A stretch of 19,100 nucleotides of DNA from Amoebophrya sp. AT5.2 (lineage: Eukaryota > Sar > Dinophyceae > Syndiniales > Amoebophryaceae), in assembly GCA_005223375.1 (NCBI GenBank), contig RXOD01004692.1:1-19100 (forward strand), given 5' to 3'. Positions 1-18,231 of the stretch are shown piece after piece. How positions within the stretch are numbered: the stretch's first letter is position 1; every line of letters begins with the position of its first letter. Under the pieces are notes generated by a model that searched no databases, was not told the origin of the DNA, and saw only the letters and a list, made by a program, of their open reading frames with translations. Position numbers and translations under genes: made by a program.

Positions 1-662
1 GGGAAATGCCGCTTGACCAGCCGCACGATGAGCTGCTGCGCATTGAACACAACGGAACTGCTGTCCTCCTTACCGTCCAGCGACGGAGGGATGACTATGT
101 TCGTGTTCGGATTCTCCGGCTTAGCCTTCTCCATCTCCTTCTCCGCAGATTCCGTAGCGCCCCCACCGCTTTTCACCTCCCTCAGCTTGGCGGTGCCGTT
201 GGGCCTGCCGAACAGGGGAAACAAATCCGGTCCGTCCTTCTCATTTCGTGCGCTGGGCAGCACGACGTAGTACTCGCCCTCTTTGAACTGGCCGATGTCG
301 TCGGGCGGCGCCGGCGGCGCGGGGTCTCCAGCTTCGTCGTCGGGCGGAGGCAGGAATTGCTGCGCCGACTTCGGCCCGAAGAAGCGGTCCGCAGCCTGCT
401 CCTCAGCAAGACTGCCGCGGAAAGCGCCTGGCACCGGCAGGTACGGGTCGGCAAGAAAGGAGGAACCAGTGGATGGCCGTCGCGTTGTTCTCCGTTGCAC
501 CTGCAACGAGTGCTGCTGGGCGAAGGTTTGCTGCCACTTCTGCGCTGCAGCGGTCACAGCTGGATGTCGCAAAGACCAGGCACAAGTTGCCGTGTAACCA
601 GTTGTATCGGTCTGCGCCGTTACAGGGGCGTCACCCTGAAAATAGCGGGCCACGATCGCCAT
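1..662 (-). CDS. Unrecognised protein, 5' part only (runs off the window)
   Basis: I read this frame by hand on the minus strand. It starts at the ATG at 662-660 (context GAAGAAGATGGC) and stays open for 220 codons to the window edge, so the C-terminus is missing. The protein begins MAIVARYFQGDAPV. It has a Gln/Ala-rich stretch around residues 38-55 and a short basic patch at about 57-62. An Ala/Pro/Asp linker covers about 105-122 (QFLPPPDDEAGDPAPP). A better-ordered block follows at about 125-162, containing FKEGEYYVVLPSARN and LFPLFGRPNG. A Lys/Glu-rich stretch and the segment FNAQQLIVRLVKRHF then run to the edge. I recognise no domain or motif. The 220-codon open frame, codon-like composition and the shared strand with all neighbours argue for a real gene. 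The plus-strand frame over the same bases is Arg/Leu-rich and looks like its shadow. Confidence 0.6.
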   Translation of the reverse strand, partial: MAIVARYFQGDAPVTAQTDTTGYTATCAWSLRHPAVTAAAQKWQQTFAQQHSLQVQRRTTRRPSTGSSFLADPYLPVPGAFRGSLAEEQAADRFFGPKSAQQFLPPPDDEAGDPAPPAPPDDIGQFKEGEYYVVLPSARNEKDGPDLFPLFGRPNGTAKLREVKSGGGATESAEKEMEKAKPENPNTNIVIPPSLDGKEDSSSVVFNAQQLIVRLVKRHF

Positions 663-1096
663 CTTCTTCTTCTTCAGGAAAAGAGAAAGTGAAAGATACG
701 CAAAAACTGAGGCTAGTAGCCTGGGGCGCAGAATACTCGAAAGCAACGTACGAGTTTTTCCCTTTCCTCGAAGATCCTACCGAAAACTACCCCGATTAGA
801 TTGATAGATACGTATACAATGACCACGCTCACGACCTCGTCTCTCGCAGGATAACGAAAAGATCTCCACGAGGTCGAGGTACACAGAGAGACCAATTCTA
901 CTTGTCCCGTCTCCGTTCGATCCTCGGCTACAACAAGACACGAAGTAAGGATCATCCGAAGACCACATCTTCACATCGACATCACATCGTCACGCGGGCC
1001 GCAATAGCGCGTGCCCGTGCGCGAGCAGCACGAAATTGATAAAAGAATAAAGGTGGCAAGAACGGCAAATAATGGTCTGACAGTCGTCTTCAGGTT
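663..1096. other. Intergenic stretch, 434 bp, no supported gene
   Basis: This stretch lies between the start of the partial gene on the left and the stop of the mitochondrial ribosomal protein gene. Frames here are under 110 codons, lack ATG starts or have unstructured products. It presumably holds the 5' leader of the left gene and the 3' UTR of the next one. I see no RNA gene or repeat. Confidence 0.5.
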
Positions 1097-1444
1097 TCAG
1101 TCGTCGTCAGGTCTTTCGAGGTTGTGGTCTTTCATGTACTCCATGTGTGCTTCGTACTGCCATTCGTCCACGATGTGCTGCATTTCGTACCTGGAGTAGT
1201 GCTCGATCAGAAAGCGTTTTTCCCGTCCATTCAAGAACTCAACCTGCACGGTCGAGGGTGCATCGTACCCGAGCAGCTCCCACGTTGCGTTCAGGTTCGG
1301 GAACTTCTTCTTCGTATTTTCGGACGTCATCCGCATGATTAATCTCCGCGCGACCTCGGTTTTGGGCCGGCCGGGGTGGTACGAAACGTGAATCCGCTTC
1401 AGGTAAGCGAGGAAGTCCAGCCGCGGAAAGAGATTGTACTTCAT
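1097..1444 (-). CDS. Probable mitochondrial ribosomal protein, L51/S25/CI-B8 type
   Basis: The frame encodes 115 aa from the ATG at 1444-1442 to TGA at 1097-1099. The N-terminus, NLFPRLDFLAYLKRIHVSYH, resembles the start of mS25, where a FP-x-R-x-x-L-x-YL segment leads into a beta strand. Residues about 30-45 (VARRLIMRMTSEN) fit the conserved helix after that strand. FPNLNATW, then PSTVQVEFLNGREKR and SRYEMQHIVDE, fit the hallmark of the L51/S25/CI-B8 thioredoxin-like domain: a strand ending in NG-x-EK, then a helix beginning S-x-x-E-I/M. The tail is acidic (ERPDDD). Family members are mS25, mL43 and complex I subunit NDUFA2; mL53 has a similar architecture. Dinoflagellates lack canonical complex I, so a mitoribosome subunit is likelier. 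I see no clear cleavable transit peptide, which is usual for such small proteins. Which subunit it is remains open. Confidence 0.6.
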   Translation of the reverse strand: MKYNLFPRLDFLAYLKRIHVSYHPGRPKTEVARRLIMRMTSENTKKKFPNLNATWELLGYDAPSTVQVEFLNGREKRFLIEHYSRYEMQHIVDEWQYEAHMEYMKDHNLERPDDD

Positions 1445-1459
1445 CCTCTGTCTTTCTCT

Positions 1460-1678
1460 TTACTCTATGTATAGTAAGGCTGAAACTACGTATAGAGACC
1501 TCAACCGCTCATGGGTTCCTCGGCTGTCACAGAGAGTCAGCAGTCCCTCCGCAAATGCGCGAGCGCCGCAAAATAAACGCATTCTGAAAGTCACGCCGAA
1601 CATCACGCCGAACACAATCTGCATATGGCATGCCACGGCCATCCACACTACATTCGGATTCGCCTTGGTGTTGCTCAT
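1460..1678 (-). CDS. Possible 72-aa single-pass membrane microprotein
   Basis: The minus-strand frame runs from the ATG at 1678-1676 to TAA. The first half reads MSNTKANPNVVWMAVACHMQ followed by IVFGVMFGVTFRMR. That is a short polar N-terminus, about 22 hydrophobic residues (roughly 10-31), then a basic flank, like a tail- or signal-anchored microprotein. Codons in the first half are GC-ending and resemble the neighbouring genes; the second half is less convincing. It sits 15 bp upstream of the mitochondrial ribosomal protein start and about 120 bp downstream of the ribosomal oxygenase stop, on the shared strand. I recognise no family. It could equally be UTR sequence that happens to be open. 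A 13-base T run on the plus strand at 1747-1759 lies just upstream. Confidence 0.28.
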   Translation of the reverse strand: MSNTKANPNVVWMAVACHMQIVFGVMFGVTFRMRLFCGARAFAEGLLTLCDSRGTHERLRSLYVVSALLYIE

Positions 1679-1782
1679 CTTCCGCAGCTGCCGCGATACC
1701 GTCTTGCATCCTTTTTCAAAGCTTTTGCATTCCACTGTTTATGTGCTTTTTTTTTTTTTCGTTGCGCTTTTATTTCATCGGG

Positions 1783-1799
1783 GGATAAGACGCTTATCC
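1783..1799. repeat. 7-bp hairpin right after the ribosomal oxygenase stop codon
   Basis: GGATAAG at 1783-1789 and CTTATCC at 1793-1799 are perfect inverted repeats with a 3-nt loop. On the minus strand they follow the TAA stop (1802-1800) directly. This may be a 3' UTR stem or chance. Confidence 0.4.
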
Positions 1800-4771
1800 T
1801 TATGCATTAGCTTCTTTCAGTTTCGCACCGCGAGAGCTTTCCTCCTCGTCGTCATCCATATCCTCTTCATCCGGATCGATCAGATCTACCTCCACCAATT
1901 TCAGTGTGTGCAGCAGCTCTCCTAGCGCTCGCCGATCGCAGGCCTCCGCTAGTGGCAGCTCCCCCAGCCCGCACCCCTTCGCCTCCTTCCCGATTGCCTC
2001 CAAAGCCGGATCTATGGTGGACTTCTCCATCAGAAACTGCAGCGCGGGAAAGAACATCTCCTCCAACCTCACCGAGCCCCGCGGGTCCGCCATCTCCCCG
2101 TCCAGCTGGCTCTCATAGTACTCGAGGAGCTTAGCCTCTCCGCACATGTGCAGTTCGGCTAGGTTCCGGTGCGGAAATAGCAGGAGCAGCTGCTGTTCTC
2201 CGGTTTCCGGGTCGGTGTCGCGCGCGCACCGAGCAGAACGTTGTGCCGTGCGAGTGAAGCGAACTCGGATCGCTGCCTCAGGCACCTCAGGCGGTGGGAA
2301 AGGCAAGTCAGCGTTGTCCTCGCACTCGCTTCCGTCCCCATCAACGCCCTCGTCGTCGCTCGTCCCACCCTCTCCCTCGCCGTTCGCGCCGACAGCTGGG
2401 AATTCGTCAGTGTCGGCGATGCCCATGCTGTCGTCGTCGCATAGGGCGCCAGAATCGTCCTCTTCCTCCTCTTCTTCTTCGTGCTCTGCCATGTCATCGG
2501 CCGCTTCATCACCGTCTTTGCCCTCCTCCATGTCCACTTCCACAAGCTGCTTCGCTGCACTACCACTAGTATCCCCAGTCGCTGACGCTGGCGGCAGTCG
2601 CATCGTCGCAAAATCGCTTCCCATCTGGTCCGCTGCCGTTTCCACGATTTTGTTGTCTTGCAGCACTCTTGTGGAGAGTTTTTTCAGCAAGTTCGAAAGC
2701 GTTTCTCTCATGTTACCAGCCCCTGGGCTATCACCGAGAGAAATCCCGCTCTGCAGGCTTCCGTTTGAGCGCAAGAAATCAACCGGCAGTCCGCGCCGAA
2801 AGTCTACGTCGTCATCGAAGCACTGCTTGACTGCGGTCGGGAGCAACTCGTTGAGGAAATCGAACCACGAATGCTTCTGGAAGGTTGACACGGTCAGGTG
2901 GTGCGAGAAGTTTCTAGGAGATGACGAAGACGACCCAGACGAGCCCGTAGTCGAAGTCGTCGTCCTGTTGGAGCTACTACTAGCTTTATTTTTACTGCCG
3001 CCAGCAACAGCATCTATTCCTTCTTCTTCTTCTAGAGACTCCCCGAAATGCACAGTCCCTCGCGGAATGTAGAGCACGTCACCCGGCTCCAAGACCACAT
3101 CCAGCCGCAGCGTCATCTTCTGCTCGCACTCCTGCAGTGTGAAATCGCGACTGTAATCTCGCGGCAATGATCCGGAATATTGCCCAGAGTCTAGTACAGC
3201 GGTACTCAGAGGTTCTGTCGAACCACCTTTCGAGCTTGCGTTTGTTCCGCTTCCGTTAACGTTGTCCTCCTCGGCACCTCCTGCTCCACCTCCCGGCGCG
3301 TAGAAGGTTTCCTTGTCGTTGACAGTCCAGCAGCGCCAGCGCTTCTTGCCCTCAAGTTGGAGCATCCACACCTCCACGTCGTCAAAGTGTGGCGCGAACC
3401 CGACGCAGCCCGCTGGCGTCACGTACGAATTCGCTCCGAACAAGCACCCAAACTCGTCCTCCAAGGCTGCCAGAAACCCCGCCACCTCTCCGTCAAAGCG
3501 CTGCGGATGCATCACTTGACAGGAAAGCCCGAATTTCGCGATCGCGTTTTCAACCTCGTCGCGGGTGGCCGGCTCACCCGCGTCCTTCACGTTCTCGACG
3601 ATTTTTTGCTGCGACGCGTGGTCAAACAGGGCTAAGTTCACCTCCGACCCGTACTTTAGCGGGACAGGAGTAGACGAAGTCGTGTTCTTTTTGTTCTTCC
3701 CCTCGTCTGCCTCGTTGATGTTACGAAGGAATACAATGACCTTAACCTTTTTTTTCTGATGCAAAACAATGCAAAAGCTCGAAGGACTTGCGATGGCTTG
3801 AGCACCATGGTCGCAGACCTCTAAAATAGGGCACCAAAATGCAGTCTCCACGAATGCAAAGGTCAATGGAATTTTTGCATGTTTCGGGTCCCTTTCGTCG
3901 GCGTATGATGCAAAATAAGCTTAATGTAAAGGTTAGTGTAAAGGTCAATGTAAAGGTTAATGAAAATGCCACTAACCTCGCCATTAAGCTTATTTTGCAT
4001 GATTCGGACAGGATTTTGCATACTTTTCCAAGACTTTCCCCGGGCGCACGATGCAAAATGGCGCCCCGTTTTTTTGCATCCGATCGCCGCGGAGAACTGC
4101 CGGATCCGTCTGCGTGACACCTACACCGATTCTTTTCATCCACATTGAGCTTTTGCATCGTTTTGCATCAAAAAATAAGGTTAAGGTCATTGCATTCCTT
4201 CGTAGATGTGCTCCTGGTGTTGTTCCACGCGCTCGAGGTGCGCCATGATTGCCTCGAAGTTGTAGTCGAGCTTTAGACCTTGCGCCCTCTTCGTAGCTTG
4301 TGCACCAGAACCAGTTGTTCCAGAAGTGGCAGAGGGGGCCTCCCGCTCCACCTGCCTGTAGTAGGTCTTGCTGCGTTTCACGACGAGCGGTCGCTTTTCG
4401 AAGTAGGTGTTGTAGAACCTTTGCCGCGACACCGGATACATGAGACGCGAGAGCACATCTTGTTCTCCCGGTTGCGAGTCTGTTTCGGTCGCGTCCTCCA
4501 CCCGAACCACGTCCGCAAGAGAAGTGTGGAGCTGGTTCGACTGCTGTCGCCTCTTGTTCCCAGAAACTGCGGGACCACGACCAGGAACGGTCCTACTGGC
4601 GCTCGCAGCGTTCTTTTTCATTTTTTCAGACGCGCCTTGCATCTCCTTGGTCGTTTGCATCCGCTTTTCCTTTGCGCTTTTCTTGCCCTTGGGGCCGCCA
4701 CCCTCGCCGGCCGCGCCAGCATCGCCGAGCCGGATGCTCAGCCCCGTCTTCTTGCCTTTCTTCTTCGCCAT
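1800..4771 (-). CDS. RIOX1: Ribosomal oxygenase (JmjC, RIOX1/NO66-RIOX2/MINA53 family), two exons
   Basis: This is a two-exon gene: exon 1 is 4771-4205 (189 codons) and exon 2 is 3716-1800 (638 codons plus TAA). The join gives 827 aa; human RIOX1 has 641. Family members are 2-oxoglutarate/Fe(II) oxygenases that hydroxylate a histidine in a large-subunit ribosomal protein, in the nucleolus or nucleus. Exon 1 holds a basic N-terminus (AKKKGKK) and the entry to the catalytic domain, PVSRQRFYNTYFEKRPLVVK (residues 114-132), then KTYY. Exon 2 holds TPAGCVGFAPHFDDVEVW with iron ligands H299 and D301, then LQLEGKKRW, and VLEPGDVLYIPRGTVHF with the third ligand H412. STFQKHSWFDFLNELLP and VDFRRGLP lead into dimerisation and winged-helix parts. 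Extras are a Ser/Thr-rich insert just after H412 and an acidic run at about 584-659. VDFRRGLP favours RIOX1, while TPAG and DDVEV resemble RIOX2, so the paralogue is not settled. The intron is the introner at 3722-4204. Confidence 0.9.
3717..3721. repeat. 5-bp target duplication, distal copy (GATGT)
   Basis: GATGT on the plus strand (ACATC on the minus strand) directly abuts the terminal repeat of the introner. An identical copy sits at 4205-4209. The matching bases stop exactly at five: the outer flanking bases differ. Confidence 0.8.
3722..3780 (+). repeat. Introner terminal inverted repeat, distal arm
   Basis: The arm begins TACGAAGGAATACAATGACC and ends GATGCAAAACAATGCAAAAG plus CTC. It matches the reverse complement of 4147-4204 except for a few substitutions and a one-base length change in the T run near its middle. 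Confidence 0.85.
3908..4000. repeat. Perfect 19-bp inverted repeat nested inside the introner
   Basis: ATGCAAAATAAGCTTAATG at 3908-3926 is the exact reverse complement of 3982-4000, with a 55-nt spacer. Inside that spacer AGGTTAGTG (3930-3938) pairs with CACTAACCT (3970-3978), so a stem within a stem is possible. I see no clear duplication flanking this inner structure, so a second nested insertion is only a possibility. Confidence 0.8.
3927..3962. repeat. Three tandem copies of a 12-bp unit inside the introner
   Basis: The unit is TAAAGGTTAATG, with copies TAAAGGTTAGTG, TAAAGGTCAATG and TAAAGGTTAATG. Its core resembles the GGTTAAGGTCATTG stretch in the terminal repeats, so the inner array may derive from the ends. 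Confidence 0.75.
4147..4204 (-). repeat. Introner terminal inverted repeat, proximal arm (next to exon 1)
   Basis: This is the partner of 3722-3780. On the minus strand it begins TACGAAGGAATGCAATGACC, immediately after the ACATC duplication that ends exon 1. Pairing of the two arms would bring the two splice boundaries together. Confidence 0.85.
4205..4209. repeat. 5-bp target duplication, proximal copy (GATGT)
   Basis: This is the second copy of the duplication; it carries the last codon of exon 1 (ATC at 4207-4205). See 3717-3721. Confidence 0.8.
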
Positions 4772-5302
4772 CCTACAAAGTTTGGGTCTCAGGCGTGACT
4801 ATTGCACCTTCCGCGAACGAAATCGAAGTCGTCGTCGTATCTAGACCTACTGGACCCTTGTCCTTAGTTAGTACTACTTGTACTCACTCTTCGTTTACGT
4901 TTTCTCTTCCTTGCGCAACGCGACAGAACCTGGCATAACATTTACCTTCCGATCATATATACTTCGGTGACCAGCATCATGACGGCCCGCTTGTTTATCT
5001 ATCGAGCCAGGAACCGTGGGTCTAGGAGAACGAACAAGTGAGATCTTTTCCACTACGATTCTTTGATCATGATCTACCAGTTCGTTGTAGGCCTAGGCAT
5101 CACGAAATGGCAGGATCTTGATCTTGATCTTCATTTTCTACCAGAAGTAGATGAACAAGCTGCGAATATACAGTTCCACGACGCTGATTCTTGTTTATTT
5201 TAATTTGTGTAGTTGTACTTCCTAATTGATCTGCGTCTGCGTTGACCTTGACCTTCAACATGATCTTGCAGCAGTGGCGGTCGACGCGGCTGTCCTGCTT
5301 TT
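4772..5302. other. Intergenic stretch, 531 bp
   Basis: This is the 5' flank of the ribosomal oxygenase gene and the 3' flank of the next gene. It holds a short GATCTT triplet repeat (5114-5131) and a 10-bp palindrome GATCATGATC near 5065-5074. Open frames here are short or lack ATG. I support no gene. Confidence 0.5.
5114..5131. repeat. GATCTT x3 simple repeat
   Basis: Three perfect 6-bp copies in the intergenic stretch downstream of the 456-aa gene. Confidence 0.7.
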
Positions 5303-6673
5303 TTACTTGTTCACTTCTACTTTTTCTTTTGGTTCTCGATCTTCTGCGCAGCTCGGTCTTGCTGCGCCGATACATTGCTCCAGTAATGACTGTAGCTCTT
5401 TTTTCGCAAACGCGTAGTCTCGATACACGCCTACTGTGAGGAGAATTGGAGTCCAGTCTGTGTCCACGTGCTGCAGCCCAAGTGTGTTGCTTTTCTTTTT
5501 AGTGCGGTCATCAGCATCACCACAATCACCATTACCACCAGCAGGTCGCCGTAGAAGTGCTCCGCGGCAATCTTCATGCATCACTTTCCTCATCAGGCCC
5601 GGCAGACCCATCTGCGGGATTTTGATTTGCTTATTGTTCGAAGCCGGCACTGGATCGGACGGACGCAGCACCTCCGGCAACGGCAAGGTCGACGGAGTTT
5701 TGTTCGCGCCCATCGGACCCGAAGTAGATCGGGTCGCTGGGCCTGCTGAAGACGACGAGGTGGTCCCACTGTTCGTCGTCGTCACCAGTTCCCTGTGACT
5801 TCTGTCTGGCACCGCAATTGCAGCGGCACCGCCAGGTACAGTAAGCGAAATCACGGGGCGATGATGTTCGAGTTCGCCAGAGGTGGGAGCCTGGTCGTTT
5901 TGCAGTCCGTGCCCAAGTCCAAGTAGTGGGTGCCCGGCGTCGCCTGAGGATTCGACGTCCTCTGCTGGTGCTTCGCCCCTGTCGTTCTCCAGCAGCCTTA
6001 GGTTTCTTTCCTTCACAAACTGCGAGTATGGGACTGCGTCGCCTCGGTGGTTGCAGTCGAAGCCCACCGCTCCCGGGCGGCCAAAAAAGTCCGTACGGCC
6101 GCCGTGGACGGTGACCAAGTGCTGGATCTGCGTCACCCTTTTCCCGTACCACGGGTGCTTCTCGGCTAGCTGAATGACGCCGCACCACGCCAAGTAGCTG
6201 TTGCGATACAGTTTGGCCGACACCACGCCGCTGCAAGTACTGCAGGAGTTTTGCGTACTACGGTCTACAATGTTCATGTCCGCGGCCTCCGCGCGAGCAT
6301 TATTTGTGAGCTGCATCCGAGACCCCGGACGAAACCGCTGACTCAGTGGATCTTCCGCGGTCATAGTTGTAGAAGCCCCGGCAGGAGACACGGCACCAGG
6401 AAGAAACAGAATGGTGCCAGGAGCAGGCGCGGCAAATAATGAAGGTGCTTGCGCCGGGACATTTTCTTCCCCTGTTGGAACTCCTCGACCTGCAGACACG
6501 GCGGAGTCCGTCATTGCTTTCCTTGCTGGGAGAAACTCTTCGTAATCCGCACCATATTGCTGCAGGTCTTTGCGCCACGGTCCCGTTGTGCGAGAAATCC
6601 AATCCTCGAGTTCGGTCTTCTCCGCGGACGTGACAAGATCCGCAAACGAAGGTCGAGGGGCCAATCTCATCAT
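5303..6673 (-). CDS. Unrecognised 456-aa protein with a Cys-containing core
   Basis: The frame runs from the ATG pair at 6673-6668 (stop codon TGA three codons upstream) to TAA. The N-terminus, MMRLAPRPSFADLVTSAEKT, is mildly basic and could be a targeting peptide. Low-complexity Ala/Pro and Gly/Ser/Thr stretches cover about 55-130 and 270-370. The best-ordered block is about 139-229. It contains CSTC (C144, C147), YRNSYLAWCGVIQLAEKHPW, TQIQHLVTVHGGRTDFFG, and FDCNHRGD (C207, H209). Three or four Cys plus His could bind a metal, but the spacing matches no family I know. A second ordered piece near the C-terminus reads WTPILLTVGVYRDYAFAKKE and ends in a Lys/Glu-rich tail. The frame is clearly coding in length and composition; the function is unknown. 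Confidence 0.75.
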   Translation of the reverse strand: MMRLAPRPSFADLVTSAEKTELEDWISRTTGPWRKDLQQYGADYEEFLPARKAMTDSAVSAGRGVPTGEENVPAQAPSLFAAPAPGTILFLPGAVSPAGASTTMTAEDPLSQRFRPGSRMQLTNNARAEAADMNIVDRSTQNSCSTCSGVVSAKLYRNSYLAWCGVIQLAEKHPWYGKRVTQIQHLVTVHGGRTDFFGRPGAVGFDCNHRGDAVPYSQFVKERNLRLLENDRGEAPAEDVESSGDAGHPLLGLGHGLQNDQAPTSGELEHHRPVISLTVPGGAAAIAVPDRSHRELVTTTNSGTTSSSSAGPATRSTSGPMGANKTPSTLPLPEVLRPSDPVPASNNKQIKIPQMGLPGLMRKVMHEDCRGALLRRPAGGNGDCGDADDRTKKKSNTLGLQHVDTDWTPILLTVGVYRDYAFAKKELQSLLEQCIGAARPSCAEDREPKEKVEVNK

Positions 6674-7562
6674 GAATGTTCATGCCTCATGTTCGCAGAC
6701 CAGGGCGAGTGGCCTCATGATGAATGAAAACATAGCATACAAAGTACAACATCAAAGAAATGAAGGCGAGGCCCCGCAGCTCTTCAGGAACTTGGTCGTC
6801 TCGCCCAGACCTCAACTGACCTGACTCTCTGGCCTAGGGCTATGGCCATGCGTAGTTGCGGGGGCATCAGGAGAATATTTTTTCTTCTATCCCTTCTGCT
6901 TCTTACTTCTGTGTAGGGGGGGGCGTCACCGTTCGAGCATCAGGCGTGGCACTTTAGAACATTTATTTTCGCTGTAGCGGATGGGGATGCAGACTCAGAC
7001 AATGTACGAGATAAAGAGAAAAGAGCGGCGCATTGACTTGCATAGCAACGGGGAGAACTCGTCTAACACACAGGAACAAAACCTACAAGCGGAAGAACGC
7101 ATGGAATCAAAAATAGCAGTGTAGTTTTCCTCATGTGTCCGTACGGATCTTCAGCCAGTGAATCCAAATGAAATCCATTTATCACGACGCCCGGACTAGG
7201 AAGGAGAACAGATGACATCACAAACAAAAATTACTCAAGTACTAGTACCGAGAAAACCACATTGATTCATTGATTGACGGGGCGTTGCCGTTGCGAACAT
7301 CTTCAAGCGCCCTGTTTTCTCGTACCTCCAGCTTCGATTTCGAATCGAGACGTCAGCCGAGGGTATCACTCTCTGGCGTGGCGACAGGCGCATCCGCTTA
7401 GATCGGCTTCCCCATCGGCACCAGGTGGACCTGGACCCCAGCTGCAAAATTCAAAAACTTGCATAAAAGGTATGTCTCAAATTTAATTTTAGGAACGATT
7501 TGCACAGCATTGGCACCACTTGCCTCCGCCCACCCTACATATTCTTCAACTTCTTCTGCCGC
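6674..7562. other. Intergenic stretch, 889 bp, no supported gene
   Basis: This is the longest gene-free stretch in the left half, between the start of the 456-aa gene and the stop of the RING-like gene. Frames are short, start at non-ATG codons or have Arg/Ser-rich nonsense products. CATGATGAATG-like words recur near 6668-6727. AT-rich sequence occurs around 7445-7495. I see no RNA gene. Confidence 0.5.
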
Positions 7563-8177
7563 CTATTCTTCCGCCCCTTCTGGCACACCTGCTTCTTCTG
7601 CTTCTGCTGGCGCTGCAGCTTCATCGTCCGGTCGCCCTTCTTCTGGTTCTGCTTCTGCTGGCTCGTCTACCTCTACGTCTTCAAATGCATCTGCTAGTAG
7701 GTCTACTTCTGCACCAGCACCATCTTCATCATCATTTTCATCTGCTGACGCTTTCGGGACTTCTTGCCTGCAACAAGGGCAGCGGAGCTGGTCCGGGGCA
7801 GGGGTCTCACCGGCGGCTCGCAACATTCCCTTGAGGCAGTCTAAACAGATCTTGTTGCCGCCACATTCAGCAGGGTGGGCCCATAGCGGCGTCCGCCCGT
7901 GCGCCACAAATTTGTCCTCGAAACAGATGTTACAACACTCGAGAAAGCACGGCATTCCTTCCCCCTCGCCTCCTGCAGCTGTCGCCCCGCTCATCATCGT
8001 ATCTATCATCGCCTCACGCTGCTGCCGAGCTGCCGAGGTAGCTGACGAGAAATTATATTCGTCCGTGACCGTGTGAACAATTTCAACAAGGATTGTTTTT
8101 TTACAGTCTAGTGTGGATGTCGAGATGCTTGGTCCCCCCAGTGCCGGAGACGGGCTTTGATCAGCAGTGGGGCGCAT
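7563..8177 (-). CDS. RING-like zinc-finger protein with acidic C-terminal tail
   Basis: The frame encodes 204 aa from the ATG at 8177-8175 (context CACCAAAATGC) to TAG. The frame is open further upstream but without an ATG. The finger spans about 82-140: CNIC (C82, C85), a loop with WAHPAECGGNKI, CLDC (C111, C114), and LRCPCCRQEV (C133, C136). This is the layout of a RING-HC E3 ubiquitin ligase domain. However, the usual C-x-H-x-x-C centre is C105-GGNKI-C111, with no His in the normal place; H101, four residues before C105, may substitute. The tail from about 145 is rich in Asp, Glu, Ala and Pro (ADENDDEDGAGAEVDLLADA and on to EGAEE). The N-terminal 75 residues look disordered. By family it would position an E2 enzyme for substrate ubiquitination. 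Substrate and location are not visible. Confidence 0.8.
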   Translation of the reverse strand: MRPTADQSPSPALGGPSISTSTLDCKKTILVEIVHTVTDEYNFSSATSAARQQREAMIDTMMSGATAAGGEGEGMPCFLECCNICFEDKFVAHGRTPLWAHPAECGGNKICLDCLKGMLRAAGETPAPDQLRCPCCRQEVPKASADENDDEDGAGAEVDLLADAFEDVEVDEPAEAEPEEGRPDDEAAAPAEAEEAGVPEGAEE

Positions 8178-8376
8178 TTTGGTGAAGAATGGAAGTGAGG
8201 AGAAATACGGCAAGTGCTCAAAGCGAGAACACTGGCTACACGTACACAGAGTAGAGTGAGCGTGCTGATTTTTTTATGGTGTATCACGCAGAATTCTTCA
8301 ACGCTGACAGCCATAATTCACGTGACTGATGAAGGTGAACTAATGCGGTAGAGATGGACGGACACGGAGTCGGAGA

Positions 8377-9999
8377 CTAGGAGAAGCCATCTGCTGAAGA
8401 AATACCTTCCTCCTGCAGCCCCTCAATGGTTCTCCGTCGCGTAAACGAATCCATAGCTGCATACTCAAGCGGAACGCTCGGGTGACGTCTCAAACCTTCC
8501 AAGACCTCTCTTTGCACGTCATTCGGAAGTTGGTCGAAATGGTCGGGCAAGTGTGGGGGGTTCAAAGGCGCCGCGGCAGCAGCTTGGGTAGCACCTGCTC
8601 CCGCCCCCGCTCCTGCCGCAGGTCCGCTCCCATGCGCAGGAGCAAGGAAAATCGAGGACAAATATTTTTTGAGCGACGTAAGGATAGCTGTAGGGGCAAC
8701 ATCTTTGAACAGCCCGCCAGCTGCTCGACGAAGACTTTGCAGGAGTCTGGCGGCCGCGCTTTCGTTTCTGGTTTTCCAGTCGGCCAGCAAAGCGGAACTG
8801 CCCGCGTCCAGTGTGGGGTCTTGCCAGTCGCCGCGCCCGGCGGACCGGGGCGCTGCTGTCGCACGATCTGTTTCAGCATCGGCATCTGGCTGAAAAACGC
8901 CAGCAAGGCGGCTGAGCAAAGATCGGCGTCGATCTTCACGAAACGGCTCCTCCTCCTGAGCAAGCTCCTTATCAGCACGCTGCCAGTCATCCTCCAAGAA
9001 CGTGGACTGTCCGCGATCGGACTCTCCAAGTTCTGCCAGGCGGTCTCGTCGAGCGTCTTGCGCCAGCTGCTCGTACTTCGCAAAGGAAATTGTAATCGGC
9101 TCCGCCCTCAGCTTCCCCGTGCGCGTATGGTAAAATTCGGCCTCGATTTTGCCGCTGGCGCGCTTGCGTGTCGCTTCCTCGTCTCCCTCGCTGTCCGACT
9201 CCGCAGAGCGCGCCCAAAGCAATGTCTTCCACGCCTGAAAGCGGTTCTTGTACGCATCTAGGTTGAGGAGGGCAGGGACCACACCACGATTGGCGCGCTG
9301 CGCTTCGAGTTTGCGGCCAAATTCGGCGTCCGCGATAAAAAAAGCACGGCTGCGCGCCTCCGGCATGGACAGACCGAAGTCAGGACTCACGAAGAACCCC
9401 ACCCACGCTCGGTAGCGCTCCTTGTACGAGCGAAGATCAATCTCTGCCCGTTGAACGCCCGCGCCACTGCCAGGACTCTCCTCACCGCCACGGAACTCAA
9501 TGTCGGTTCTCGCGAGAGCGCGCTTGCACACTTCATCGTGGGGTATCCTATCGTCCGACTCGCCGTCGCCATTTAAAAACCGCGCTTGGTCGAAGTGAGG
9601 CAGCGAAGTTTTCCACAGCCGAAAACGGTCTTTGTATTCCTGATGGAACAATCTATGATTGTTGTGATAACAGGCACCGGCGACATAGTGGTCAGCGTGC
9701 GTGCCGGCGTCGTTTTGGTTAAGGCCGGCTCCATTGTAGTCGACGGTGCAGCTGCTGTGAAAAAAATCGTACCAGTCCTGGCGTTTTCGCTGAACCTCAG
9801 CCGCCTGCGCTTCCGGATCTCCCGGCACACGAGGACATGTGCTGCGCCCGAAAAGTTTACGAAGTGCTCCTTCCACTGCCTGCAGTGGCACTGCACCAGC
9901 GAGAGTTTCCTCGGAGTGCCATGTTGCGGCAAAGGCGAATACCCTCAACCACGAGCACGAATTTGAATTTCTCTGCCTTTTCAGTAGAAGTCGTACCAT
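8377..9999 (-). CDS. Unrecognised, probably secreted protein with three diverged YK-x-R...W repeats
   Basis: The frame encodes 540 aa from the first ATG (9999-9997) to TAG. The N-terminus, MVRLLLKRQRNSNSCSWLRV then FAFAATWHSEETLAGA, has a basic stretch and a hydrophobic core and could be a signal peptide or anchor. Three related units follow. They open with EYKDRFRLW (Y122), SYKERYRAW (Y192) and AYKNRFQAW (Y250), spaced 70 and 58 residues. Each closes 28-40 residues after the Trp with an Arg/Ala helix and a D/E-x-EF end (RTDIEF, ADAEF, KIEAEF). A looser RKRQDWYDFF lies ahead of them and a KYEQLAQDARRDR segment after. Next come a charged region, a possible amphipathic segment ILTSLKKYLSSIFL, a Gly/Ala spacer (about 455-480), and a C-terminal helical piece with FDQLPNDVQREVLEGLRRHP. 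I recognise no known domain. Three repeats suggest internal duplication. Confidence 0.75.
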   Translation of the reverse strand: MVRLLLKRQRNSNSCSWLRVFAFAATWHSEETLAGAVPLQAVEGALRKLFGRSTCPRVPGDPEAQAAEVQRKRQDWYDFFHSSCTVDYNGAGLNQNDAGTHADHYVAGACYHNNHRLFHQEYKDRFRLWKTSLPHFDQARFLNGDGESDDRIPHDEVCKRALARTDIEFRGGEESPGSGAGVQRAEIDLRSYKERYRAWVGFFVSPDFGLSMPEARSRAFFIADAEFGRKLEAQRANRGVVPALLNLDAYKNRFQAWKTLLWARSAESDSEGDEEATRKRASGKIEAEFYHTRTGKLRAEPITISFAKYEQLAQDARRDRLAELGESDRGQSTFLEDDWQRADKELAQEEEPFREDRRRSLLSRLAGVFQPDADAETDRATAAPRSAGRGDWQDPTLDAGSSALLADWKTRNESAAARLLQSLRRAAGGLFKDVAPTAILTSLKKYLSSIFLAPAHGSGPAAGAGAGAGATQAAAAAPLNPPHLPDHFDQLPNDVQREVLEGLRRHPSVPLEYAAMDSFTRRRTIEGLQEEGISSADGFS

Positions 10000-10690
10000 A
10001 TTGATTGAAGTGGAAGTGCGGGTGATTTGCAGTTCTGCGAAATCTAAAAGCAATTTTGTATTTGTCTACTTTAGGCAAGACTTGCTCGAAGAGCTTGAGC
10101 TAGAGGACCTCAGTAGCGCAAGGAGAAGCCCCCTGTGAATGTCGAGAAAGAGAAGCTCGAGCTCCACCTGCTACTTGCAAACTACGCGGAGAATTCGCCA
10201 ATATTACCGTCGGGCCCCACGCCTTTTTCACTCCGTGTTGGACTTCCTTGCATGGCCCATCGGCATTCTTTTTCAATTGGAATTCTCTTGTGCTTGTCCA
10301 TGTCCCTCGAGCGGACCGATACGAACAAGAGAAAGAAAAACTAAAACCAAGCAAAGGGGCAAGCGCAGGATAAGTTTTTACTTTTAGATTTAGACTGAAT
10401 CTGAACCGAGTTAGTAGGAGTAAGGCACTTCCATTACCATTGGATTTCTCTTTCGTTCTAGCACCGATTCATTTAGGTGTAAGACTACGATGACATGACC
10501 ACCGCCTTGAACTTCATCCACGCATATCTGCATTGCAGTTCGTCGATGTTTGGGGACCACGCCCGTGCACAACAATGCTGAGTCAGGAACAGGGTGTGTT
10601 TCGACACCAGGAGCCCAGCCTGGGGACCACGACCATAGATTTAAATTACAATTCTTTCGAACATTCATCACAGTCACACATTCGTTCACT
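10000..10690. other. Intergenic stretch, 691 bp, with one weak small ORF
   Basis: This stretch separates the repeat protein start from the methyltransferase stop. A minus-strand frame at 10668-10411 could encode 85 aa beginning MNVRKNCNLNLWSWSPGWAP. It has an ATG, but no recognised motif and mixed codon use; I do not annotate it as a gene. GGGGACCACG occurs twice on the plus strand, near 10553 and 10622. Nothing else stands out. Confidence 0.45.
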
Positions 10691-11623
10691 TTAGCCGGCT
10701 CGGCGGTGGAGGCAGCCACATCGTGGGCAGCGGCTTCCCGCTGCGATGTTCGCGCGCAAGTTTTTTTTCGAGCACTTCGGGCACTGCAACCCCTTGTTTA
10801 CCGACGCTCTTCTCAACACAATGAGATCAGATCCACCAGGTGATCCGGTTTTTGCACTTGCGGCGGCGGGGATGCGTTTCCCGCTTCCGCCGAGTTCGAA
10901 CTCGAGACTCGGCGGCACGCCGGCTTTCTTCATCGCGTCCAGCAACCTCTGGCCCTCGAGCGTGAAGAACAGCGCGGCCCCCCCCAGCGCCAGCACTTCG
11001 CACGCTTCCTGCAGGTAGATACCGATGCTTCGCAGCCGTTTCGCCTCGTCCGGTTCGCACAGAAGCGCATCTGCTAGCCCCTTTTCCACGATGAGCGCGA
11101 CGCTGCTCCGGCGGTAGGAACTCTGGAGGCCGTCGGCGACAATGTCGTTGCGCACCCAGCGGTTCATGCTTTTAACTTGCATCAAAGAAGTCGAGCAAGA
11201 GGCCGCACGCTCCCGCATCTGCTGCACAACGATGTTGCTGTAGTCCAAATTGTCGATTTCCAGCGAGGGTGAGTGGTCTTGTTCACCTCTGACCGGTGGA
11301 ACTCCTACTGGGTCTGCCGCAGCGCCGCCGCCGGATGTGTCCGCCGCGGATGTGTCCACCCCGAATGTGTCTTTTTTTTTAGCGTTAGTATCAGCAGCAC
11401 GACACCATGCTGCTGCCAATCCGACGCCCAGAAGACTGTTGCCGCAACCGAGGTGCAGAACCTTTTTCGCCTTCGTGCTTGGCAAACGCGGGTCGTGGGT
11501 GGAAACCAGGTAGGGCAAAACGTGCGGCACTATGTCGTCGACCTCGCCAAGCCACTCGTAGTCGTCCCCGAAATTTCCGGCTTTGTATTGCCGGTCCCAA
11601 TACAGACGCTCATGGTAGTCCAT
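10691..11623 (-). CDS. SAM-dependent methyltransferase (EEF1AKMT4/METTL13-like) with C-terminal zinc ribbon
   Basis: The frame encodes 310 aa from the ATG at 11623 (context CAAGATGGA) to TAA. The start HERLYWDRQYKAGNFGDDYE then WLGEVDD matches the YWD-x-RY...YDWFG opening of the EEF1AKMT4/METTL13 N-terminal family. Motif I is VLHLGCGNS (55-63). The acidic motif II region is IDNLDYSNIVVQQM (about 123-136), where DYS-x-VVV is typical. LIVEKGLADALL (178-188) matches the VLEKG-x-x-DALL block, and VLALGGAALFFTL is the late strand. Known members methylate lysines of translation elongation factor eEF1A; that this one does so is inference. A low-complexity insert sits between motifs I and II (about 76-120). 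The end adds a four-Cys ribbon, CPKC (C281, C284) and CPRC (C299, C302), usually absent from the human proteins. No membrane segment is seen. Confidence 0.85.
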   Translation of the reverse strand: MDYHERLYWDRQYKAGNFGDDYEWLGEVDDIVPHVLPYLVSTHDPRLPSTKAKKVLHLGCGNSLLGVGLAAAWCRAADTNAKKKDTFGVDTSAADTSGGGAAADPVGVPPVRGEQDHSPSLEIDNLDYSNIVVQQMRERAASCSTSLMQVKSMNRWVRNDIVADGLQSSYRRSSVALIVEKGLADALLCEPDEAKRLRSIGIYLQEACEVLALGGAALFFTLEGQRLLDAMKKAGVPPSLEFELGGSGKRIPAAASAKTGSPGGSDLIVLRRASVNKGLQCPKCSKKNLRANIAAGSRCPRCGCLHRRAG

Positions 11624-11781
11624 CTTGCTCCTAAAAGCGTGTTCTCGCAGCTGTGAATCGTTTAGCTGAAAACGGTATAGTGCATTTTAAGTTCTCGGAC
11701 TGCTGCATCCGGAACCGGATCCTGATTCGATGCCGAAGGAAGGTGACAGGTGGGCGTGGGGCTAGCGCTAGGTTGTGGTAC

Positions 11782-11967
11782 TCATGGACGAGATAGAAGC
11801 AGAACATGAAGATCGTGAACGTGATCGACGGCGAGGTACTTTCTTGAGATCGAGTGGAATGACACGTCGCATTTGTCCGGCTGCAGCGAGGCTGGATCGA
11901 GATCGTCTCCTTCTCGAAGTTTCTGGATTTCGTCTTCAACAACGGCCGCATGCTCGCTCGTGATCAT
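11782..11967 (-). CDS. Possible 61-aa protein just downstream of the TPR gene
   Basis: The minus-strand frame runs from the ATG at 11967-11965 to TGA. The product begins MITSEHAAVVEDEIQKLREG, then DDLDPASLQPDKCDV, which reads as an acidic amphipathic helix and linker. Codons (ATC, ACG, AGC, GAG, GCG, GCC, GAC, CTC) resemble real genes here. The ATG lies 17 bp past the stop of the TPR gene in another frame, and that frame is also open upstream inside the TPR gene. It could be a separate small gene, an alternative last exon of the TPR gene, or chance. No family recognised. Confidence 0.35.
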   Translation of the reverse strand: MITSEHAAVVEDEIQKLREGDDLDPASLQPDKCDVSFHSISRKYLAVDHVHDLHVLLLSRP

Positions 11968-11983
11968 GCAGGGGCCATACTGC

Positions 11984-13927
11984 CTATGTCGTCGCGGCGC
12001 CGCCGGGTACAGCTGGCGACGACGATGCGGATGTGGTCGGCGACGAGGACGCGAGGACTACATCGTTTTTTTCCGCGGATGTGCCAGAAATGATCACGCC
12101 CGCACCATCTTCTTCGCCACGCGTCCGCTTTGCTGCGAGGTCGACCACTTCGTACTTCTTCGCGTTTGCCCCCAGGAGCCCTTCCATCTCATCTCCCAGC
12201 TTCCCGGCGCGCTCCGCCTCCGCCTTCGCTCTTTCGTCCGCGTCTTGGAACTGGTCCTGCAGCTCCGGGGTAGTCGTTAGGTGTGCCGGGTTTACTAGCC
12301 TGGCCACTTCTTCGATCGCGTGCCGTTCGGGGTCGTCTTTCTCGAACATGCGCTTGCATAGCTCGCTCGCGCGGGCCATCTCCTCCCGGCCGCCGCCGTT
12401 CAGGTACCACTTGCAGCATCCGAGGTTGTAGTAGGTGAGGCAGATGTAGCGGTTGTTGTCGTCCCCCTCGTAGTACTCCAGCAGCCTGTCCAGCGCGATC
12501 TGGTAGTAGTCGATCGCCTTCTGGTACGACTCGCGCCGCTGCAGACAGGCGCCGAGGTTGTTGTACGCCTCGGCGAGCTCGGACTTCGCGGGCGGAGCGG
12601 CGGAGGAGGACTTGTTACGCAATTCGATTGATGTCAGGTGTTCCAGCGCGTCCCGCAGGTGCCGCTCGGCGGCGTCGCCGTTGGCTTCGATGTCTGCCTC
12701 CATGAGGCAAAGACCGACGTAGGCGTGGCACTCCGCAAGCATCGAGAGGATCGGAAGCTCCTCCAGCCACTTCAGCAGCGCGTCGCGCACAGACGAGGGG
12801 CCGCGCTGACGCTTCTGGTCGCCCGTCGTCGCGGCAGGGGGGCGACGACCAGTGATCTTCTCGACGACAAGAAGAAGCTTCTCCTCGGCAGGAATAAGCT
12901 GGTCATCGACAGCACGAGGACCAGTGGCGGGCGTTCCGCTGGTCGTGCCTGTGGACGAGGTTTCAGGCGCCGCCGCGTTTGCGGCGCTCGTGGTCGCGGT
13001 TGGACTCCTCGTCGATGCCGCTGAATCGGTCGGTGCTTCCTGTGCGGAAGCGGCAGGCCTAGAAAGGGGCAGCTGCGCCCTCGTAGTGCTCTCGTCGATA
13101 ACTCGCCTTGTCGTATCATCTCCTCGACCGCAATCTGCAGTCGCTCCCCGATGCCGCTTACTCGACTGCATGAATTCACTTTCCAATCTACCCCGTCTGG
13201 CCTTGGCTTCTTCCGCTTCATCCTCCTCACTATTCAAATGCCACCTGCCCCGCATCACATTCCACGCGCGCCTCGCCGATCTTTTCACTTTCTGCACCAT
13301 GGCCCCACTGCTTCCTTCTCCTCCCCCGGTCCCGAACAGCGTCATCCCGGTAGCGCCTACCACGGTGACGTCCTTTTTCCGGCTGTCCCCCGTTGCGTAC
13401 AGTTCGGACAAGTACGCTTCGCGCACCTCCGCCAGCATCCGGCATTCCTCGAGCGCCTTTCCGAAGTACCCGCTCGCACGCGTGTGGTGGCCGCCACTGT
13501 GGTAGTGCTTCCCGAGGGTGATGAACGCCTCCACCCGCGCCATCACGTCCTGCATCGAGCGGTCCTCTACCCTCTTCTTGTCGATCACGAGCCGCAGCAT
13601 CTGGTCCAGGTTTTGGAGCCCCTGCAGCCCGTTTTCGGACGACTTCGGGTCGTAGCGACCCAGGGACAGGAAGGAGAAGGAGCGAAAACCCGTTTTCGGC
13701 CGGCTCTGCAGCAGGTGGTCCGCGCCGAGGCATGCGGTGGCGGGCTGTAGTTCTTGCGGCTGGTCGTGCGGCTGGGGACGGGGCAGAGGACGCAAAGAAT
13801 GCACTATCGAGGTCACAGCCCGGCGGGACATATGTTGTTGTGCGCGCCGCCGCAAGATCAATGGCGTCACGGCACAGCAGCTCTCGACCACGCCCAGCAG
13901 CGAAGGGTAGGATGAAGCGGCGCGCAT
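11984..13927 (-). CDS. TPR-repeat protein with a probable mitochondrial targeting region
   Basis: The frame encodes 647 aa from the ATG at 13927 (context TCAAGATGCG) to TAG. Residues 1-55 are rich in Arg, Ser and Leu and free of acidic residues apart from one Glu (MRAASSYPSLLGVVESCCAV, LRRRAQQHMSRRAVTS), which fits a mitochondrial presequence; M33 is an alternative start. A helical repeat lies at about 128-168 (FITLGKHYHSGGHHTRASGY). A cluster follows at 394-434 (CHAYVGLCLMEADIE), 449-488 (LAEAYNNLGACLQRRESYQK then AIDYYQIALDRLLE, a canonical TPR) and 492-531 (CLTYYNLGCCKWYLNGGG). Between them are a basic/acidic stretch and a Ser/Thr/Ala linker (about 290-340). The C-terminus is a charged helix then Ser/Ala-rich. 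TPRs are protein-binding scaffolds; the partner is not visible. No enzyme domain is present. Confidence 0.8.
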   Translation of the reverse strand: MRAASSYPSLLGVVESCCAVTPLILRRRAQQHMSRRAVTSIVHSLRPLPRPQPHDQPQELQPATACLGADHLLQSRPKTGFRSFSFLSLGRYDPKSSENGLQGLQNLDQMLRLVIDKKRVEDRSMQDVMARVEAFITLGKHYHSGGHHTRASGYFGKALEECRMLAEVREAYLSELYATGDSRKKDVTVVGATGMTLFGTGGGEGSSGAMVQKVKRSARRAWNVMRGRWHLNSEEDEAEEAKARRGRLESEFMQSSKRHRGATADCGRGDDTTRRVIDESTTRAQLPLSRPAASAQEAPTDSAASTRSPTATTSAANAAAPETSSTGTTSGTPATGPRAVDDQLIPAEEKLLLVVEKITGRRPPAATTGDQKRQRGPSSVRDALLKWLEELPILSMLAECHAYVGLCLMEADIEANGDAAERHLRDALEHLTSIELRNKSSSAAPPAKSELAEAYNNLGACLQRRESYQKAIDYYQIALDRLLEYYEGDDNNRYICLTYYNLGCCKWYLNGGGREEMARASELCKRMFEKDDPERHAIEEVARLVNPAHLTTTPELQDQFQDADERAKAEAERAGKLGDEMEGLLGANAKKYEVVDLAAKRTRGEEDGAGVIISGTSAEKNDVVLASSSPTTSASSSPAVPGGAATT

Positions 13928-14069
13928 CTTGATCTTGTCTTCTCTGGATGCGGGCCAGAATTTTTACTCAGTTTTTTGATGTTTTCAACAATCTTGTTCT
14001 TTACTGACAATGATTGAGTGCTGCAATGAATCATGAAACAAGGGCTTTGGGAGAAGGAGCAAGTGCAAG

Positions 14070-14336
14070 TCAGCGTCTGCCGTCTGGCGGCTCAGTACAT
14101 ATTTTGCCTGCGCCCCCCTCTTGCGCTGCTCTCCACTGACTTTCCTGAAGAGCACATGCAAATCCACTACAGGCGTTCACGACTGCTTCCACATCAAACA
14201 TGCAAGTCGTGAACGTGAAGTGCTGCTGAACGAGATGCCCCAGTTTCTTGCCCGTCAATCTCACTTCCATCGTACACTTGCCGTGATGAGGAAAGAAACA
14301 CTCACAGGACCATCTTCTGTCACGGTTTCTTGTCAT
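14070..14336 (-). CDS. Weak candidate: 88-aa Cys-rich small ORF
   Basis: The frame runs from the ATG at 14336-14334 (in-frame stop TGA a few codons upstream) to TGA. It contains WSCECFFPHHGKCTMEVRLT, then FTFTTCMFDVEAVVNACSGF, with about seven Cys spread through it. Codon use is mixed. No signal peptide or family is evident. An 11-bp inverted repeat lies inside the frame, which counts slightly against coding use. Confidence 0.25.
   Translation of the reverse strand: MTRNRDRRWSCECFFPHHGKCTMEVRLTGKKLGHLVQQHFTFTTCMFDVEAVVNACSGFACALQESQWRAAQEGGAGKICTEPPDGRR
14174..14215. repeat. Perfect 11-bp inverted repeat with 20-nt loop
   Basis: CGTTCACGACT at 14174-14184 pairs with AGTCGTGAACG at 14205-14215. 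It lies within the weak Cys-rich ORF. Role unknown. Confidence 0.6.
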
Positions 14337-14984
14337 CAAATGTGCCCCTCAACCTCATCATCTCTGGGCCTGGAGGCGGAAATAAGATAGACCCGGTACG
14401 CATCCGCATGGCCGTGTCAGTTTGTTCAAAATAATATTGTCATTAGATCAAAATAAAAGTACTATGGTAAAAGCTGCTACTTTCTATGTTTGTATGATCA
14501 ATCCTCGAATCTAGTTCACGACAGGTACAAACGTCGAATACTCGACAGAGCGCGTCGACGTCGTGTACGAGTACGCGTGTGTCGTCCCCTCGACGATACT
14601 TTTTACATCGCATCCGCAAAGTAACTTTCGGTTCTAGAAGAAGAACATAGATACAAGTTTTAAGTCTTGATGCCGTTCAGTGGATCTCCTCGCTTCTCCA
14701 GCACAAGCCAGCTCGTACTATCGGATGACGTCGCTTCTCGCTGCCGCTGTTAGTTAAGTTTCGACGTAAAAAGAATAAGAAAGTATCTGTTGACGTCCGT
14801 CATCGGTTCAACATCCCGCATGGGAGTCCTCCTCGCTGCGCGACGCGTGCCGCGCTTACCTTCTCTTCTGAGTCCACCCTGGTCATACTGCTACCAAACG
14901 CAAGCGCAAGCCATGCATTATACTCACTTATTACTTTCAAAAATCAGCCACCACCTAGTTCCCTCGTCCATGGATGGAAGCGTA

Positions 14985-15329
14985 TTATTCGCTATCGTCT
15001 TCTGCTCCGGCTTGTCCCTTGATGTAGGACACCAGCACTCCGGAGTTCATTTGCCGGCTTTCCATTGGTCTGTAGACCGTGCTGCCGTAGCTTCTCACCG
15101 ACGGCTGATACAGCGACCCTTTGGATGGAGGTTGGTACGCGCTGGGGGTCGGAAGGGTGGACTCCTGATAGTAGTGCGTGTAGCCGGCGGGCCGCTCGAT
15201 GTCGTCGTGAGTGCTGGGCTGAAAGTACAACACCTCATCGCCACCAGCGGTCATGCGAGCATTCTTGCGCGCGCTGCCGCTCGCGACGTCGTCACGATTG
15301 CGACACCCACAACAATTCTGTTGGCCCAT
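14985..15329 (-). CDS. Small protein starting MGQQNCCGC, probably myristoylated and palmitoylated
   Basis: The frame encodes 114 aa. The ATG at 15329-15327 is the first ATG in the frame (codons upstream include none), so the protein begins MGQQNCCGCRNRDD. Gly2 with a small polar context fits an N-myristoyltransferase site, and Cys6, Cys7 and Cys9 are placed for S-palmitoylation. Such dual acylation anchors proteins to the plasma membrane or, in alveolates, to pellicle membranes. The rest is polar and Tyr/Ser/Pro-rich (GYTHYYQESTLPTPSAYQPP, SLYQPSVRSYGSTVYRP). It ends in an acidic GAEDDSE, with no transmembrane segment or known domain. The regular Tyr-x-Pro/Ser spacing suggests a disordered, phosphorylatable tail. 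A second protein with the same kind of start lies 1.4 kb upstream on the same strand (16720-17265). Lipidation is inferred from sequence only. Confidence 0.7.
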   Translation of the reverse strand: MGQQNCCGCRNRDDVASGSARKNARMTAGGDEVLYFQPSTHDDIERPAGYTHYYQESTLPTPSAYQPPSKGSLYQPSVRSYGSTVYRPMESRQMNSGVLVSYIKGQAGAEDDSE

Positions 15330-15514
15330 TGTCGACGCCGATGTTGTGGTCTTTAAGTTCAATGGATGCGCTAGAAAAGATGAATGTACTAGCTCCCAGT
15401 GCTTGTGTAGTTATCGTGCGCGATGGGTCGTTGTCGTGGATAAGCTGTGAAATCAACACTTCGAACAAGTTGGTTTGTTCAGAATCGAATGGAAAAAAAG
15501 CAGGGGCAGGAAAA

Positions 15515-16045
15515 TCAATCGCACCTCCTCCCTGCCGTCGCTGTCGAAAGAAATGAAATTTGGAGGACTTCATCATGATGATGATTCTGTGTACGAGGGC
15601 ACAGATGATCAACAGACAACCGATACGCGCGTTTTACATCAACGCGACCGAGAGGACGATGTTTCACGAGCAACGCTGAGGCTGATTCGCTGACCGATTC
15701 TAAACGACGTCCAGAACCTCCTGCACCTGCAGCACCAGCAACGATGGGACCGACGAATGCGGCAGCAATAACGAATCCATCTGCTCTGCACGTGCACCGA
15801 TACGAATCATATAAATACATATTACTTAACATGATACTTAGGCACGAGATCGAAGACTTCGATTCGAAGTCAGGAAAAACTAGAGGTTCAGGTACGGCAG
15901 CAGTGAAAGACATCACACTTGTGGCACATCGATCATGTCCAGCATGGGCTCCTGTCGCTAGATATTCGAGTATCCATGATTTTTCGTCCAAAATTGTTCC
16001 ATCCAACACGTTTCTGGGGGCATGTCTCACCCGTAGCTTTATCAT
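15515..16045 (-). CDS. Weak candidate: 176-aa ORF with one hydrophobic segment
   Basis: The frame runs from the ATG at 16045-16043 to TGA. It begins MIKLRVRHAPRNVLDGTILD. Its only structural mark is a hydrophobic Ala/Gly/Val segment at about 91-110 (FVIAAAFVGPIVAGAAGAGG), which could span a membrane. The C-terminus is His/Arg-rich and ends TATAGRRCD. Codon use is less GC-biased than in the secure genes, and the opposite strand is also open for 117 codons. No family recognised. It may be noncoding or an old gene remnant. Confidence 0.25.
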   Translation of the reverse strand: MIKLRVRHAPRNVLDGTILDEKSWILEYLATGAHAGHDRCATSVMSFTAAVPEPLVFPDFESKSSISCLSIMLSNMYLYDSYRCTCRADGFVIAAAFVGPIVAGAAGAGGSGRRLESVSESASALLVKHRPLGRVDVKRAYRLSVDHLCPRTQNHHHDEVLQISFLSTATAGRRCD

Positions 16046-16237
16046 GTATACGATCCCGCCTGCTTGCACGAACAAGTACTTGGAAGCAAGTACTTAAGTA
16101 AGCTTCTTGCTCGGAAGTGACAAGAACGGTCAGGCCTCCCCACGCTCGTGGTTTGTCCTCCACTCTTGGATGGTTGAATGGGGTCTCTGCTAAATCAATG
16201 TCAATCTCGATGTCTGTGCTCTAAACGTAAACTCTAA

Positions 16238-16486: not shown

Positions 16487-16719
16487 GTTCGCGATCGCGA
16501 AGACGGATCGATATTAGTGCCGCACCGCACGCGCACCCCCGGAAAGATCGACCATTTCAAAACTCAATCCATGAGTTCGTCGTTCTACTACTTCTACTCC
16601 CCCCGGGAGCGGGACCACTTCGCTTCTGCCAACTTTCTGCTCCATCCGTCCAGGGAACCCGGCGGTCTGTTGGTGTTGTCAACCGCAAGAACTTCTTCTA
16701 CTCTGACCACGACCACCGT

Positions 16720-18222: not shown

Positions 18223-18231
18223 CTAGACGGC
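18215..18231. repeat. 7-bp hairpin spanning the stop codon of the last gene
   Basis: GCCGTCT (18215-18221) and AGACGGC (18225-18231) are perfect inverted repeats with a 3-nt loop. The stem contains the final GTC codon and the tandem TAG TAG stops of the gene at 18223-19100. Confidence 0.45.

Follow-up and report, generated by a model that had tools for sequence, protein, structure and literature searches.

A low-copy transposon with 59-bp inverted ends interrupts an NO66-type gene of an Amoebophrya-like dinoflagellate and plausibly acts as an intron

The window (the whole of contig C896, 19,100 bases, from a 50.7-Mb assembly of 2759 contigs) carries an NO66-type gene on the minus strand, in two coding parts separated by a 483-bp insert. 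The first coding part (4205..4771, minus strand) was defined from the frame listing and from the reading obtained after excision of the insert; the second (1800..3716, minus strand) was identified by its frames, by Pfam, by structure matching and by genome search. The second part contains a JmjC_2 domain (E 6e-23), and the joined protein was matched to NO66 structures with a best E of 9e-34, in agreement with the first-pass annotation, which had placed the insert within a conserved ribosomal oxygenase gene. The best relatives of the joined protein were P0001, a publicly available gene model for this locus that is identical to it over 171 + 276 residues, and an Amoebophrya sp. A120 protein (40% identity across 65% of the length). 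P0001 is a gene prediction, probably made on the same assembly, and is uninformative on splicing. In the alignment, the insertion site falls in a variable protein linker, shortly ahead of a conserved YG pair; relatives, P0003 (38% identity) among them, are continuous across it at the protein level. When the second coding part was searched against the assembly, its one match was itself, and neither a spare copy nor an insert-free allele of that part was seen. The JmjC_2 family gave weaker matches on seven further contigs; the match on C218 looks like a MINA-type paralogue.

The entire insert (3722..4204) was delimited by direct reading, repeat listing and BLAST. Its left terminal inverted repeat (3722..3780, plus strand, 59 bp) and right terminal inverted repeat (4147..4204, minus strand, 58 bp) were set by repeat listing, BLAST and end alignment; both ends begin TACGAAGGAAT, and they align over 59 columns, of which 55 are identical, 3 mismatched and 1 gapped (93% by BLAST). 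Two copies of a 5-bp target-site duplication, GATGT, were read directly on either side (3717..3721 and 4205..4209). When the first 34 bases were compared with the last 34 in reverse complement, 32 positions matched; the highest count among 2000 dinucleotide shuffles was 17, and a chance origin of the paired ends is therefore excluded. The size, inverted ends and exact duplication that had been reported for the insert were thus recovered by direct reading, by the end alignment and by the shuffle test. Folded as RNA together with its duplications, the insert gave -218.6 kcal/mol, versus -127.4 +/- 5.3 kcal/mol for 100 shuffles (z -17), and its ends pair as a long stem.

Within the insert lies an inner inverted repeat (3902..4006; repeat listing and BLAST), with arms at 3902-3938 and 3970-4006 that are 86% alike, and this repeat contains tandem repeats with a 12-bp spacing (3917..3964, plus strand; repeat listing). 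The motif TTTTGCAT or its reverse complement occurs ten times in the insert and once in the remaining window. An ATGAT direct repeat around the inner inverted repeat (3910-3998) was considered as the trace of a nested transposon and was set aside, since the inverted repeat itself would probably give rise to it. The longest listed frame wholly within the insert encodes 138 aa (3742-4158, minus strand); Pfam gave nothing above the cut-off for it and one sub-threshold match (E 0.011), so the earlier description of an insert with no coding capacity is a reasonable one. The insert is a non-autonomous, MITE-like DNA transposon with terminal inverted repeats, which duplicated 5 bp at insertion, and the insertion was made by a transposon of the cut-and-paste type.

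Other copies of the element were sought across the assembly. When the complete insert and its left end were searched as DNA for near-identical copies, the window was the one match; for the inner repeat half (up to 3 mismatches), the assembly held no match beyond the two arms of the window. The end sequence with up to 3 mismatches was found, apart from the window, at a place on C2716. A looser end pattern (up to 3 mismatches) was found at 13 places, versus 2 for a control pattern: four matches were perfect and are the ends of two whole elements, one had 2 mismatches (contig C126) and eight had 3 mismatches. At one of these eight, on C23, no correctly oriented second end was found within 8 mismatches. 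A match to the 13-base core on C262 was discarded, agreeing with the end at just 14 of 22 positions.

The second whole element (C2716:5063-6159, 1097 bp) has its own 5-bp duplication, AACGG, of the same length as GATGT in the window. Its ends are 86% and 89% alike to those of the window element over 28 bp, and its own arms are 74% alike over about 230 bp; the interiors of the two elements show little similarity by BLAST. No Pfam match was obtained for the two plus-strand frames of at least 90 aa inside it. By reading, about 120 bp separate it from the ATG of a minus-strand frame downstream; on its excision that frame would continue for at most 29 codons on the far side, where an exon may or may not lie. 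The same contig carries a 752-aa frame (L009:4464-6722, minus strand) with no Pfam match at E 0.01, which, by eye, we take to resemble a reverse transcriptase from its motif.

The lone end on C126 is 84% alike over 44 bases and lies in a coiled-coil-like gene, 13 bases into a GT-AG intron. At that locus (L035, about 1450-1750 on the reverse strand), a direct repeat of 38 bp (36/38) includes the exon end and its GTGAGG donor, and it flanks 219 bases that start with the related transposon end. In total, two whole elements and one lone end were found, with one copy within a coding frame. Repeats are easily dropped from assemblies this fragmented, and the copy number is a lower bound, as the best candidates were scored in an assembly of 2759 contigs. 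The exact end pattern had 0 matches in viral contigs and prokaryote genomes; viral or prokaryotic carriage was set aside, the 3 viral matches of a shorter end pattern being taken as chance.

The transposon family is real, was once mobile and is low-copy here, and its visible copies have diverged. The inverted ends, duplications of equal length and more than one copy with related ends are those of a DNA transposon with terminal inverted repeats, or MITE. MITEs are short, non-coding elements with terminal inverted repeats and a target duplication. The present element shares these features, together with a second element that has similar ends and a different interior, but differs from MITEs in its very low copy number in the present assembly. 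The first-pass annotation had proposed a genome search with the terminal repeats, in which many copies, mostly inside coding frames, would support an active introner family; the search returned a single additional whole element and a lone end.

A wider search for introns of this structure was carried out in a sample of 227,101 bases, made up of the window, part of C2716 and other contigs picked by contig number. Scanning for inverted repeats of at least 14/16 with a 4-10 bp duplication gave 10 matches, against 0 in a single-base shuffle: 3 in the window insert (one of them the whole element), 4 overlapping at L022, 2 at L023 and 1 at L021. Exact repeats with a duplication that joined frames numbered 32 versus 19 in the control at 8 bases, 13 versus 6 at 10 bases and 18 versus 2 at 12 bases; 15 of the 18 matches at 12 bases lay at the window, L022 and L023, and repeats of 8-12 bases are hard to separate from chance in such frame-joining tests. 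Among 135 near same-strand frame pairs (nearest and next-nearest), 3 had strong inverted repeats around the break, with scores of 33, 31 and 28 (the last being the window), while the rest scored at most 14 and the control reached 13.

L023:4976-5463 (C200) and L022:3026-3609 (C100) have arms of 31-39 bp around same-strand frame breaks. Their arms lie in open frames, and their duplications look like parts of the inverted repeats or stand without a clean partner; a GTAAGG donor is present between the arms of L022. These two loci are a lead, not copies of the window element. A burst of introners was unsupported by the assembly searches and by the scan of 135 pairs in 227 kb. A Pfam search of ten sample frames matched 2 of the 10 at E 0.01 and was useless for intron finding.

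By its protein matches to A120 and A25, the host is an Amoebophrya-like dinoflagellate. Besides the NO66-type protein, another gene of the window matched A120 (46% over 79%) and A25 (58% over 26%). Both A120 matches lie on one A120 contig of 1,750,138 bases, which suggests that gene order is conserved. Across positions 3-19098 of the window nearly all well-scoring frames are on the minus strand, with one of 80 aa on the plus strand; this bias agrees with the clustering of genes in one direction that the available part of Farhat et al. 2021 describes for Amoebophrya (PMC7789003). The U6 snRNA was found twice in the assembly (C954:5337-5443 and C1707:2594-2699). A search of the assembly for U1 snRNA found none, a weak result, as control genomes gave neither U1 nor U6 and the assembly may be partial; it parallels the pattern of A25 and A120, in which U1 was undetected according to that work (PMC7789003).

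Removal of the insert together with one GATGT rejoins the frame exactly and yields an uninterrupted protein of 827 residues. Both coding parts, stop-free over 2481 coding bases, belong to one NO66-type protein. Six equivalent boundaries allow this exact excision. None of the six is GT-AG, and none pairs a GT, GC or GA donor with AG; one reads AT...AC, with a donor that does not fit the minor-spliceosome consensus. Because the insertion site lies in a variable linker, conservation does not demand exact excision. Of six junctions proposed in two other genes of the genome, four left the frame open and were all read as GT-AG, the form proposed for them at the outset; an alternative acceptor gave no open frame, and for the sixth the donor string was absent from the sequence. 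These four introns are too few to call non-canonical introns absent.

On this evidence we give about an even chance to the reading that the transposon sits in an NO66-type gene that functions through removal of the element from the RNA, likeliest by exact, hairpin-aided excision at non-GT-AG boundaries. A non-autonomous transposon with terminal inverted repeats entered the coding sequence of the gene and duplicated 5 bp, as the sequence itself shows. The gene would have stayed functional, the element leaving the RNA as an intron. The likeliest route would be excision of the element with one copy of the duplication at non-GT-AG boundaries, and a hairpin of the two ends would bring the exon ends close to each other, as proposed for the introner elements of A25 and A120. 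The family, being low-copy here, would depend on a partner transposase. We infer the survival of the gene from the single-copy second part, from exons that are stop-free despite the drifted ends and from the long RNA stem. The recovery of U6 with a blank U1 search also fits this reading, if weakly. It is plausible that the insert acts as an intron, and its splicing is likely. Against this reading stand the exact boundaries, none of which is GT-AG or otherwise resembles a splice site, the GT-AG form of the four other introns, and the fact that only 3 of the 135 frame pairs had strong inverted repeats.

The same observations on boundaries and on the introns checked elsewhere would favour a broken gene, in which the insert is recent or polymorphic and stays unspliced; we consider this somewhat unlikely. 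Without splicing, the first coding part runs 5 codons into the insert and then meets an in-frame TGA (ORF 4187-4771). The 16 GT donors between 330 bases upstream and this TGA were scored with a simple ad hoc scheme; the nearest, 24 bases upstream of the insert, scored 1.0 and the best two 2.5, which also suits a broken gene. However, the coding parts are stop-free despite the 3 substitutions and 1 gap that have come to separate the two ends, and the assembly search showed neither another copy nor an insert-free allele of the second part. In a simulation with a drift of about 2.6% per end, an estimate that assumes ends identical at insertion, about 2.4 stops were expected in a dead gene and 9% of the runs were stop-free; the drift argument for an intact gene is weak.

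Ordinary splicing at GT-AG sites close to the element's ends, which would slightly alter the protein linker, is unlikely by our estimate, and a little more so than a broken gene. Frame-keeping GT-AG pairs do exist, for instance with the donor 24 bases before the insert and acceptors inside or beyond its right end; the site is a variable linker, and the other introns are GT-AG. Three of those introns have donors that scored 4.5, 4.0 and 3.0, in contrast to the 1.0 of the nearest and the 2.5 of the best donors at the insert. The fourth, L041-a, scored just 1.5 (2.5 at an alternative GT), and weak donors therefore occur in this genome. The two best-scoring donors at the insert lie at least 147 bases upstream, and their use would cost the first part 49 codons or more.

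It is very improbable that a leader trans-spliced within the insert has split the gene into two separate messages. Reading on from the second part, the frame does stay open for 66 codons of the insert, and the P0001 model begins inside the insert, but a split there would cut through a domain region that is uninterrupted in the single protein of relatives. P0001 also lacks a portion of the conserved catalytic region and so looks like a prediction error. Exact excision from the DNA during the life cycle, comparable to that of the internal eliminated sequences of ciliates, would also restore the frame exactly, but is the least probable of all, given a C2716 element and a C126 end with no demonstrated interruption of a coding frame, and we know of no such excision in the Amoebophrya-like lineage.

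The favoured reading, RNA removal of a transposon from a functional gene, resembles what is described for the introner elements of Amoebophrya A25 and A120 in the accessible part of Farhat et al. 2021 (PMC7789003): the host is related, inverted repeats at both ends could form a hairpin, direct repeats flank the boundaries (3-5 nt there, 5 here), a transposase is absent inside, and the boundaries are non-GT-AG, if the present element is excised exactly. The inverted repeats differ in length, with 8-20 nt there versus 59 here. The start motifs are TTA in A25 and TAT in A120, versus TAC in the window and C2716 elements and TAT in the C126 end (PMC7789003); as such motifs are strain-specific, the mismatch counts against identity with the A25 and A120 families, not against an element of the same kind. 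The repeated introns reported by Farhat et al. (2039 in A25 and 29,850 in A120) came from RNA-supported sets, whereas the three related copies here come from the genome sequence, and the 3 strong frame pairs among 135 in 227 kb are unlike the abundance in A120 (PMC7789003).

Similar terminal inverted repeats and duplications of 3-9 bp occur in part of the introner families of Gozashti et al. 2022 (PMC9860276), as far as the consulted portion of that paper goes. Those families have 5 to more than 2000 copies, as against one copy in a coding frame here, and include rare GC and GA donors, whereas exact excision here yields none of GT, GC or GA with AG (PMC9860276). Several similar copies lying as introns in different genes, the mark of an introner in the sense of Gozashti et al., were not among the copies found, whose number is a lower bound. 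Of the introner reading in the first-pass annotation, the non-autonomous transposon in a conserved gene of an Amoebophrya relative stands; a many-copy introner family is not supported, the copies found being few and diverged. The unusual introns may be confined to a subset of the genus, as a 2025 paper suggests in its available part (PMC12005148).

Two open questions are how transposons become introns and how some Amoebophrya remove introns with non-GT-AG boundaries. The insert of the window is a clean test case for both: its 5-bp duplication is intact and its ends are long, the frame can be restored exactly, and copies are few. A low-copy transposon with 59-bp ends, spliced exactly with the guidance of a hairpin at non-GT-AG boundaries in a lineage that also has GT-AG introns, may represent an introner at its founding stage, before multiplying; we put this forward tentatively, as a possibility short of an even chance. 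If it is true, an introner would here be seen before its multiplication, in a further Amoebophrya-like lineage.
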